From positions 1 through 49,920 of the forward strand of contig BJGJ01000009.1 in the NCBI GenBank assembly GCA_014190435.1: a DNA stretch of 49,920 nt. Direction: 5' to 3'. The stretch is from Methylocystaceae bacterium (GTDB taxonomy: Bacteria; Pseudomonadota; Alphaproteobacteria; Rhizobiales; Beijerinckiaceae). A model generated the notes under the pieces. The model saw only the letters and a program-made list of their open reading frames with translations. It was not told where the DNA came from and ran no database searches. The translations under genes and the position numbers were made by a program. This document shows, in pieces, positions 208-6,137 of this stretch (within the stretch, counting starts at the first letter, position 1; the number at the start of each line of letters is the position of its first letter).

Positions 208-756
208 TTACAGACTATTCATCACAACAGCCTGGAAAAGAAGAACAAGTCCAGTAAATCCAACCGCCAATGAAGCGGCGATGTGTTGAGGATAAAACTG
301 CTGAGGCTTTTTCCGGAATTTAACGACACTATCATTGAAACGCACGAGCCGGTCAGCCTGTTCTTTTTCTAATCTGGATTGAGGCAGAACACCTCGATAA
401 TAGCTCCAGACCCAGCCCATGGGTATAGGATAGGCATTCAATGCAATACGCTCCGCATCCGATTGAGACAATCTGTCATGATATGCAACCCAAACCCAGG
501 CAGATGGCCTCGGCGTCACTGTCAGCCATTTTTCTTCACTTGTTTGAGGAAATTCAGCACGATAATGACACCATACCCATGCCATAGGGATGGAGGGTTT
601 ATATAACTGAGCAAGCTCGGCTTTTGTTTGTGTATGCTGAGCTTGATATTCTTCCCACACCCAAGCCTGCGGGTATGACGGCAAGGCGGCCTCACGCCGC
701 CGCATAAACCCCAAAAAAGTAAAAAAACGCTCCATCTTAAGCATGATACAACTCAC
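208..756 (-). CDS. WVW-repeat protein with C-terminal membrane anchor, unknown function
   Basis: I do not recognise this family. The protein (182 aa from the GTG at 756) carries four near-regular repeats with WVW at about residues 32, 60, 87 and 115, so the period is 27-28 residues. Each repeat follows the pattern WVW-x2-Y-x5-Q-[ST]-x2-E (last position E in all four), usually preceded by Pro and a small residue. After the repeats comes a basic linker (about 140-155) and one hydrophobic segment (about 158-178) close to the C terminus, which suggests a tail-anchored protein with the repeats in the cytoplasm. There is no signal peptide. The start is unsure: in-frame ATGs follow at 744 and 735 and no strong ribosome binding site separates them. 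It stands alone, with no obvious operon partner. Confidence 0.75.
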   Translation of the reverse strand: MSCIMLKMERFFTFLGFMRRREAALPSYPQAWVWEEYQAQHTQTKAELAQLYKPSIPMAWVWCHYRAEFPQTSEEKWLTVTPRPSAWVWVAYHDRLSQSDAERIALNAYPIPMGWVWSYYRGVLPQSRLEKEQADRLVRFNDSVVKFRKKPQQFYPQHIAASLAVGFTGLVLLFQAVVMNSL

Positions 757-3605: not shown

Positions 3606-4433
3606 TCAAGCATCATATTCGCCAGATTGCTTAAATTGATCAACTGTCCAGTTTCTCTGCGTCATAATCATTTTAACCCATTGCGGTGGGTGAGCGCCTC
3701 TACCTGACCAGGTGTCTCCGGAGACGTGGTCTTTATACTTAACGATTGAGGCTTTTTCGCCATCATCCAATCTCACCTTACCGGCCTTACGGCCTTTCTT
3801 GGTGGTGTCTGGAAATAAGTCGCCTAGATCAAGCCCAGCTTTTGCAAGTTTAGCTTCAATTTCTGCCCGTAAATTTTCTTTTCCTGCGTCTTTGCGACGC
3901 GCAATTTCACGATGCGCCCTTTCAATCATTGACAAAATTTCTAGGTCAGACAAATTAGAGAATTCTTCACTCACTGCGTAACTCCTGAAATCATCGACAT
4001 AATGAGCCCTTGTAGGACGTAAAGGCCTATTAAGGGTTGAAAGGGCATATTTACTTTTCGGTTGTTTTTTAATCGACTTTGTAACGATTTTAAGCGCCTT
4101 AAAATCCGTCTTGTCTTCAGTCTCCAAACTCTCTGAAGCTTGTGTTTCTAAGAGGCAGGGCAAGATACGACCGCCTGTCGCAGTATCGCTATCATCTCTC
4201 ATGTGACTTAGACGCGACAATTGTTCTGATTTGTTTGTATTAAAGATGGCGTGGGCTTCTTTATGTATCTCACTTGTCCGTCGATCAGAGACAATGCGAT
4301 CCGAAACGCTTCTCGAATCGATTTTTAGCTCCACATTTTCTGTTTGTATGAGGCTTGGATGAAATGGAGCATTCAGTATTTTAGTTGGCCTCGACTTGTA
4401 AGCTCTCGCAAACAACCGATTAGAATTTTTCAT
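3606..4433 (-). CDS. H-NS-like nucleoid protein, long frame with an internal start
   Basis: The C-terminal 120 residues are a normal H-NS family protein: a helical oligomerisation part (SDLEILSMIERAHREIARRK) and the DNA-binding core KYKDHVSGDTWSGRGAHPPQW, a variant of the YRDP..TWSGRGRxPxW signature. H-NS proteins silence AT-rich DNA. The open frame runs about 155 codons further upstream. ATG 4433 (AAGG 9 bases upstream) gives 275 aa; an upstream TTG at 4472 has no site. An internal GTG at 3974 has a perfect AGGAG 7 bases upstream and gives 122 aa, the usual H-NS size. The N-terminal extension is basic and Ser/Thr-rich without a recognised domain. Either the extension is expressed and two forms exist, or only the short form is made. 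Confidence 0.8.
   Translation of the reverse strand: MKNSNRLFARAYKSRPTKILNAPFHPSLIQTENVELKIDSRSVSDRIVSDRRTSEIHKEAHAIFNTNKSEQLSRLSHMRDDSDTATGGRILPCLLETQASESLETEDKTDFKALKIVTKSIKKQPKSKYALSTLNRPLRPTRAHYVDDFRSYAVSEEFSNLSDLEILSMIERAHREIARRKDAGKENLRAEIEAKLAKAGLDLGDLFPDTTKKGRKAGKVRLDDGEKASIVKYKDHVSGDTWSGRGAHPPQWVKMIMTQRNWTVDQFKQSGEYDA
3982..3986 (-). promoter_or_regulatory. Strong internal ribosome binding site (AGGAG) before GTG 3974
   Basis: AGGAG stands 7 bases before an in-frame GTG inside the long H-NS-like frame. Translation from here yields a 122-aa protein of standard H-NS length, so this site decides the start question. Confidence 0.55.
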
Positions 4434-4818
4434 TAGTTTACCTTGGTATTTACCTGAATTAATACGGGGCAAAGTGACGTAGAAAGTAAAAGGTTAATTA
4501 AACGTCAATTTTTAAAAGAAATCTCTAACCCCAATGACTTATCAAATATAATAATAATATAAATTAAACAATAGGAAAAATTAGATAAAATATAAAAAAA
4601 TACTAAGGAGCATCGAGATATCGTCACCAATAGAGCCGGTCACAATGTCAACTTGAAGTCATAACCATATCTTTTAGACTAATAAACCACCGGTGATAAT
4701 TCGCGATCAACGGCACTAGTCAGATTAGAAAAATTACAACGAAAAGCGCTGCAATGATGAAACCGCGCCTATTCTGGTCTGCTGATCTGCTCACAATCTG
4801 TTATTTCATATCTTAGAA
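4434..4818. other. AT-rich intergenic stretch up to the IS element
   Basis: Very AT-rich between 4500 and 4605, with no open frame that has a start and a ribosome binding site. The last 9 bases (4810-4818) are the left copy of the IS target duplication. Confidence 0.5.
4810..4818. repeat. Left target-site duplication of the IS4 element
   Basis: ATCTTAGAA, identical to 6138-6146, directly adjacent to the left inverted repeat. Confidence 0.8.
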
Positions 4819-6137
4819 CACTACTGTCCAACTGGAATCGAATAGATTCAACTGGTTGTAAATAATCTCTTCATTGTTGCTGTCGTCTGCTCCCTCAAGT
4901 GCCTGTAAAATTGAGGCTTTCTCAAATGAGCGGACGGACAAAATTTGTATAAAAAGCGTAGAGCGACACTTTCAGTGAGAGTTCCTTTTTTATGATCGCA
5001 GCGAGCATATAGACACAAACAGCGGTCCAGATTTGCGTCTTAACAGCATTCTCTGAATTCCTAAATAAATGACGTATATGTAAATTCTTTTTTATCCATT
5101 TGAAAAATAATTCAACATGCCATCTTTGCTTATAAAGCTTTGAGATCGTCAAAGCAGGTAGCGTAAAATTGTTTGTTAAAAATATGAGTTTCTTTTTCGT
5201 TTCTGGATCACAAAAGTTAATACGTCTCAAATGTTCACTGTAGTCCTGACGTGCATAAAAGCCATCGAGTATAATACTCTGATCAGAATAAAGTCCCGAT
5301 GTCTTATCGACAGAACACGAACTAATACGATGATAATTCATATTTGTTTTTGCACGTGTAACGAAGAATGCTGCGGCTTGATGTAAAGCATATAGTCTGG
5401 AAAAAAACGATGTAGCCGCGTTGATGGCGCCAGCTTCGATGCCGATTAAATGTAGCGCTTTAGCGTCAGTCATTTTTCCATCAGAAACATGGATAAAACT
5501 AGAGATCTGGCCGCATAAGTCGAGAAGAGTATGCATCTTAACGGCTGCTTTCGTTGAGCGAAAATCAGCCCATGGAAATAATGATAAGCATAAATCAATT
5601 GTCGTGCTGTCTAGTGCATAGGCAGTGTTTTCAACATCTAGTCCGATATCATCATTTACGTAAAGCTTACGAGAGTGTCGTATTAAAATAGCTGCCACAT
5701 CAGCCCATATACGCCAGTCGGGACGATCATTTGCGCCAGCTAACGTAGATTTTGCTATAGGCTTACGTAGTCCCATCGCATAAAGCTTTATTGGCTGGGC
5801 TCGAAGTCACGCTTCTATATCTCGCAAGCTCTCACGATAAGTCATTTGAGCAAAGGTCATAATACGAAATTGCTCGCTGCATCGAAGGCTGCGAACACCT
5901 GCGTCGCCATTGTAGCGTTTCACTATTCGATCAAAGCTTGTCCACGGCACAAAATCCATAATTAGCGAAAACAGTGTTCTGCCAAGCTCCACGGCAGCTC
6001 TCCCTGATCAATAATTCAGGAAAAACTACCCGAAATTTACGTAATGAAATTGAAATCGACACCAAGAAATTTGGTCGTAGATTATTGTTCATAATGGCCT
6101 TACAAGCCTAAGCTATCTGCTCAACCGGACAGTAGTG
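4819..6137 (-). mobile_element. IS4-family insertion sequence, inactive
   Basis: The ends carry matching inverted repeats: CACTACTGTCC at 4819-4829 and its complement GGACAGTAGTG at 6127-6137. Directly outside both ends is the same 9-mer ATCTTAGAA (4810-4818 and 6138-6146), a perfect target-site duplication. Size (about 1.3 kb), 9-bp duplication and a DDE transposase fit IS4-family elements. The single transposase gene inside is disrupted by an in-frame stop and a frameshift, so the copy cannot move by itself, but the intact duplication shows it was placed by one simple insertion. Confidence 0.85.
4922..5992 (-). pseudogene. IS4-family transposase, broken by a stop and a frameshift
   Basis: Reading starts at GTG 5992. 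After RESLRDIEA an in-frame TGA (5807-5809) replaces what is usually a Cys codon; the same frame then continues as LRAQPIKLYAMGLRKP, so this is one nonsense change. The body has the IS4 DDE features: ALDSTTIDLCLSLFPWADF (first Asp), the YCYxQIxLFFKWIK-type motif (here HVELFFKWIKKNLHI, the Y-(2)-R-(3)-E-(6)-K region with Glu). Near 4948-4951 one extra base shifts the frame, so the frame ends at 4922; the other frame continues to 4813 as SVRSFEKASILQAL...NQLNLFD, the normal C terminus. Both lesions together make it non-functional. Confidence 0.85.

Follow-up and report, generated by a model that had tools for sequence, protein, structure and literature searches.

A portable eleven-residue peptide tag on otherwise unrelated membrane proteins of Methylocystis

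On comparison of sequences, the repeat unit of a tail-anchored protein encoded in the window (the whole stretch of Methylocystaceae DNA analyzed here, 49,920 nucleotides) is a short portable peptide tag carried by otherwise unrelated membrane proteins. The consensus spans eleven residues, A-W-V-W-[ST]-x-Y-[RK]-G-x-[LVI], and the first genome searches showed the peptide to recur in further proteins of the window's own genome and of its genus, Methylocystis, in keeping with a first-pass annotation that had assumed a methanotroph. To our knowledge, it is unusual for a peptide tag to be restricted to a single bacterial genus and distributed over membrane proteins that are unrelated to one another, and the occurrence of this one on such proteins in Methylocystis suggests a private docking code. 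On balance we favor its interpretation as a docking or sorting tag that would be read by one shared candidate partner, with the window protein as a putative four-tag scaffold. The features of the window gene and the families of proteins that carry the tag are collected in Table 1.

Table 1. The tag-bearing gene of the window and the families of host proteins.
Feature	Position	Strand	Remarks
Gene for four-tag, tail-anchored protein	208-744	-	178 aa from conserved ATG at 744 (MLK...)
Tag copy 1, AWVWEEYQAQH	634-666	-	
Tag copy 2, AWVWCHYRAEF	550-582	-	
Tag copy 3, AWVWVAYHDRL	469-501	-	
Tag copy 4, GWVWSYYRGVL	385-417	-	Nearest of the four to the canonical tag
C-terminal transmembrane helix	226-282	-	Hydropathy, AlphaFold2 model, alignment
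Family A, argH-locus proteins			Tag 7-15 residues past nearest Met, helix, Pro/Ala-rich part, basic end
Family B, OmpA-domain and small membrane proteins			OmpA E 4.5e-9 (one protein scanned)
Family C			Small proteins with hydrophobic hairpin
Family D			Hydrophobic N-terminus, second helix, tag at extreme C-terminal end
Family E, DUF2865 proteins			Laid out like D; DUF2865 E 3e-26
Family F			About 390-400 aa, two helices, adjoins ftsH-like gene
Family G, window family			Four tags
Family H			Three tags
Family I			Two tags
Additional host outside families A-I			46-aa ORF

The longest open reading frame of the window gene (208-756, minus strand) opens with a GTG at 756 and encodes 182 residues; the ATG at 744 is the start common to this gene and three relatives. 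Four evenly spaced repeats had been noted in the first-pass annotation as too regular for chance, and this description stands: WVW and Tyr are kept in all four copies at spacings of 28, 27 and 28 residues, and 200,000 shufflings of the protein yielded two WxW..[YF] matches in 90 instances and never more, against four in the real sequence. The Gln and Glu included in that description are likewise kept in every window copy, and fall outside the motif in most other tag-bearing proteins. The proposed tail anchor was also borne out, in that hydropathy identifies a hydrophobic C-terminal helix at residues 159-177 of 182, flanked over 20 residues by five Lys or Arg on the tag side and none on the other; the helix stretch GFTGLVLLFQAVV is invariant when the protein is aligned with its homologues (four genomes). 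Database searches, too, linked the repeats to no described family, the window protein lacking any significant match in Pfam, NCBIfam, PHROGs, PADLOC or PDB sequences.

Homologues of the window protein were found in three other genomes (72% identity in G020, 54% in G013 and G008). Relative to the nearest homologue, that of G020, dN is 0.17 and dS 0.85, and the 28 motif-core positions are 93% identical compared with 69% for the other 150; the corresponding values against G013 are 75% for the core and 49% for the rest. Judged by its homologues and its substitutions, the open reading frame is a real gene under purifying selection. Other features of the window include a polyketide-cyclase-like (SRPBCC) gene present as two overlapping ORFs (1366-2036), which at the matching place in G020 is a single ORF of 188 aa; an ORF at 3606-4472 with a match to the H-NS C-terminal domain, under the Pfam cut-off, and a long unusual N-terminal part, again with a like ORF at the matching place in G020; and a transposase (4922-5992) whose DDE_Tnp_1 and DUF4372 matches lie on two separate ORFs.

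Fifty-eight distinct host ORFs were chosen because they bear the tag, a number that is no evidence in itself. With the tag masked, BLAST clustering divides them into 18 clusters, and the tag is in this sense a short peptide conserved across non-homologous proteins. The nine families of Table 1 are our own grouping; the strictest count is six (A/B, C, D, E, F and G/H/I), because an A protein falls into a cluster with B ones and a spacing of 27-28 residues is common to G, H and I. Conservation is at the level of the peptide: over 19 tag copies from 12 loci, third codon positions vary and the residues are fixed. Among the hosts the tag is found near the N-terminus, at the exact C-terminus or in tandem (two to four copies), and in most it is near a terminus. 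Seven of the 58 carry it no more than 20 residues from the stop. Five of these, from two families (four of D, one DUF2865 protein), end exactly at tag position 11, the D genes being whole in G003, G008 and G000 and split over two frames in G013; the last two end at position 14 and are small, nearly identical ORFs from a single type of locus. An upstream Met is present in 46 of the remaining 51 hosts and lies 1-26 residues ahead of the tag in 45, counted with real starts unmapped. The sharp C-terminal boundary is not universal, because the DUF2865 host of locus L056 carries both of its tags inside its C-terminal tail, the last beginning 43 residues before the end.

The DUF2865 proteins also provide a view of homologues that lack the tag. 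With the pattern used, DUF2865 proteins could be read at 13 of 30 loci, where two are tag hosts and 11 have no tag; ten of these 11 are also without the second helix, the protein of locus L165 alone having one. In these proteins the anchor and the tag together have the look of a module that was added. For one family-D host, the part presumed to be periplasmic, which we take to resemble LprI, has no match in Pfam and gave no usable AlphaFold2 model (pLDDT 47). The argH-locus family matches GltJ in NCBIfam (E 6e-6) at 25.6 bits against a cut-off of 450, which may reflect Pro/Ala-rich composition only. One argH-locus tag protein (L128:9898-10407) has a TonB/GltJ-like layout of tag, helix, Pro-rich part and basic end.

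The tag profile A1 was built from 26 segments, and at E<=0.001 it matched 33 of 39 Methylocystis genomes, a count that is not independent because some of the genus genomes supplied segments; absences elsewhere are the test. In a draw of 298 genomes from the family, 22 matched, all Methylocystis; with 25 members of the genus among the genomes listed, none of the 273 others did. In a draw of 385 genomes from the class, the window's own genome alone matched, and none of the 384 others. When 200 genomes were searched with an exact DNA pattern, 25 contained it, each of them one of the 39 Methylocystis genomes, and its reversed control was found in none of the 200. A looser pattern matched nine places in the window's own genome, eight of them inside four host genes and one not a host, compared with two for the reversed control. 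Tagged proteins are present in the laboratory strain M. rosea SV97. Of 27 tag stretches in contigs of named genomes, 22 bear the title Methylocystis or Methylocystaceae, and three titled Alphaproteobacteria or Hyphomicrobiales have host proteins identical to those of Methylocystis genus genomes. One, at the edge of an archaeal contig, is probably due to chance. The tag protein of a further contig, from a Gammaproteobacteria MAG (L062), clusters with Methylocystis ones; the contig is probably misbinned.

Within the genus, G012 (59% complete) and G015 (73% complete) gave weaker profile matches only, and G007, G025, G033 and G034 gave none in the search of 39 genomes. An argH tree of 37 genus genomes and five outgroup genomes (three of eight outgroup candidates, without the anchor pattern, were dropped, and no argH proper was found in G000 or G012) places these four tagless genomes in one clade with support of 99 (SH-aLRT, quick method), and either one loss or one later gain of the tag would therefore fit. 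In the argH stretches fetched from the four, and from G008, G015 and G020, no tag-bearing ORF was found; G008 has its tags on families D, F, G and H, and G020 on G and H, with a D tag in a different frame from the main ORF. A virus or plasmid origin was considered and rejected. Pattern searching located no tag stretch in viral contigs, the window protein as a query against viruses gave two pattern matches and no relative, and there was no phage match, the weak plasmid DotA/TraY matches in 13 Xanthomonas records (E 0.06 or worse) being treated as chance. Family-B hosts are on loci with transposase or plasmid-like genes, as judged by eye.

A membrane helix is predicted by hydropathy in 56 of the 58 hosts, two small proteins being the exceptions. 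Lys and Arg are more numerous on the tag side of this helix in 29 of the 56, equal in 16 and fewer in 11. By family, the basic flanks agree with a cytoplasmic tag in E, F, G and I, in two of four C hosts (with equal counts in the remaining pair) and in one of two H hosts; A and B are variable, and all four D hosts have more basic residues opposite the tag side. Domain content provides a separate guide: an OmpA domain implies that the tag of its host would be cytoplasmic, as do the hydrophobic N-termini of families D and E, read as signal peptides without a signal-peptide program. Wherever domains permit judgement, the tag is most likely cytoplasmic.

Among 20 fetched loci, no neighbor gene is common to all nine host families. 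Response regulators recur at loci of families C, D and G, and small metal-binding proteins at B and E loci (recognized by Pfam in one B protein). Genes for PQQ methanol/ethanol-type dehydrogenases lie within about 6 kb of hosts in three families: near F in both genomes, near H in G008 with a matching N-terminal fragment in G020, and near A in G021 and, via locus L070, in G026. None was found in the other six large A loci, in the fetched loci of the other families or in the window. Several arrangements may be recorded in their own right. The window-gene homologues of G013 and G008 are flanked by two response regulator genes (L125:585-2712). A three-tag gene and a PQQ methanol/ethanol-type dehydrogenase gene stand in divergent orientation (L119:1-1527, L123:9511-10879), the dehydrogenase having an extra N-terminal stretch before its domain, and hosts at L113, L120, L128 and L070 are likewise near genes of this type. 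On a contig of 365 kb, three tag-bearing ORFs are grouped beside a Phasin_2 gene (L126:8669-10823).

In the literature covered, which concerned the motif, Methylocystis membranes and docking motifs of bacteria and lies outside most subscription journals, the tag is undescribed, and its profile has no match among PDB sequences. PEP-CTERM and LPXTG-type signals are C-terminal and are processed by a sortase-type enzyme. They resemble the tag in being found genome-wide, alongside a membrane helix, on proteins unrelated to one another, but the Methylocystis tag stands at either end or in tandem; a sortase-type C-terminal sorting signal was rejected because the tag is not confined to the C-terminus, as the count of seven near-terminal hosts indicates. 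Another comparison is with Caulobacter PbpC, which docks on the bactofilin BacA by a 13-residue terminal peptide; residues 2-13 of the cytoplasmic tail are needed for this recruitment and the conserved peptide is sufficient (PMC12448750). The two systems would share a short and conserved peptide, placed where a single-pass membrane protein ends in the cytoplasm, that recruits the protein to a membrane site, with a Pro-rich part and a basic part ahead of the helix; they differ in that one client protein is reported there (PMC12448750), and in that the distribution of bactofilin does not fit that of the tag. Bactofilin was accordingly rejected as the receptor, being absent from tag-rich G003 (99% complete, five tag matches) and G008 (98% complete, nine). 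Of the 33 genomes with the tag, 27 have bactofilin, and G000, G013, G020 and G029, all less complete, are without it as well; of the tagless genomes, G025 and G033 have it and G007 and G034 do not. We know of no sequence likeness between the tag and the PbpC peptide.

Other interpretations must be weighed against a shared partner. Aromatic peptides could adhere to one another by beta-strand or amyloid-like stacking and so co-cluster their hosts without a receptor. This is unlikely, if credible: the W-x-W...Y pattern is strand-like by inspection, Pro is frequently found two residues ahead of the tag, and multi-copy tag proteins exist, but A, V and S are conserved too, as mostly are R/K and G, and this seems stricter than aggregation needs. 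Bacterial amyloid signaling motifs (BASS) similarly occupy the N- or C-termini of otherwise unrelated proteins; as described, however, they are 20-40 residues long and link neighboring NLR and Bell-domain genes (PMC8086366), whereas the tag has 11 residues and its hosts are scattered membrane proteins. No NLR/Bell-domain gene pair was recognized around them, neighbors being judged by eye. That the tag is an interfacial segment, lying on the bilayer beside the helix and nothing more, would suit its combination of Trp and Tyr with Arg or Lys and the prevalence of membrane helices among the hosts. We consider this distinctly unlikely, in that a fixed sequence, a sharp C-terminal end in five hosts and the lack of any match in the 273 other genomes of the family draw and 384 of the class draw are unexpected for a role with lipid only.

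We regard a processing or degradation signal for a membrane protease as very unlikely: the terminal position would be apt, and one host family adjoins an ftsH-like gene (by eye), but it is the only family to do so, and a degron would not be expected in four copies in tandem. The first-pass annotation had proposed a stacking solenoid that binds an aromatic or sugar ligand. The regular period of 27-28 residues in two-, three- and four-copy proteins speaks for it. The unit itself, however, proved to be an 11-residue peptide, and because single copies sit at the N- or C-termini of unrelated proteins, it is not obliged to stack with neighbors. Moreover, no significant family match was found, and AlphaFold2 confidently modeled only the C-terminal helix of the window protein, giving the repeat region no confident fold (mean pLDDT 41, weak evidence as the input was a single sequence). 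The solenoid is in our estimate highly improbable, and the associated suggestion that the repeats bind a partner is plausible. Lastly, the many unrelated host genes might recall a mobile DNA element inserted in frame, an origin to which we assign a virtually negligible probability, as tag codons differ between hosts and among the four copies of the window gene, whose 66-base units have only 44-67% nucleotide identity.

The docking reading that we favor would proceed as follows. A linear tag of about 11 residues, near the termini of one- or two-pass membrane proteins and on their cytoplasmic side, would be bound by a single common partner, either a protein or an assembly, that most members of the genus possess and that would gather the tagged proteins at one membrane site. 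Single-tag proteins would be clients carrying envelope-facing parts (an OmpA domain, a DUF2865 domain or Pro/Lys-rich tails) to that site, and the window protein, a tail-anchored carrier of four tags, would be a multivalent scaffold or cross-linker. Such a role would explain why window copies 1-3 follow the canonical tag less strictly, and the looser copies in multi-tag proteins fit binding by avidity, we infer. As a tentative extension, possible though on the doubtful side, a membrane compartment of Methylocystis may bear on its cytoplasmic face a dedicated receptor that gathers envelope proteins through AWVWSQYRG, with multi-tag proteins such as that of the window tethering or stacking the membranes; the intracytoplasmic membrane stacks, where methane oxidation is carried, would be an example of a compartment so addressed. 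The proximity of PQQ dehydrogenase genes to some hosts weakly supports this methane-oxidation reading; it was noticed after the fact and without a background rate, and our estimate is unchanged by it.

We know of no makers of internal membranes in methane-oxidizing bacteria. The 11-residue tag would offer a direct bait for finding a hub in these organisms, and it might serve for targeting in engineering.
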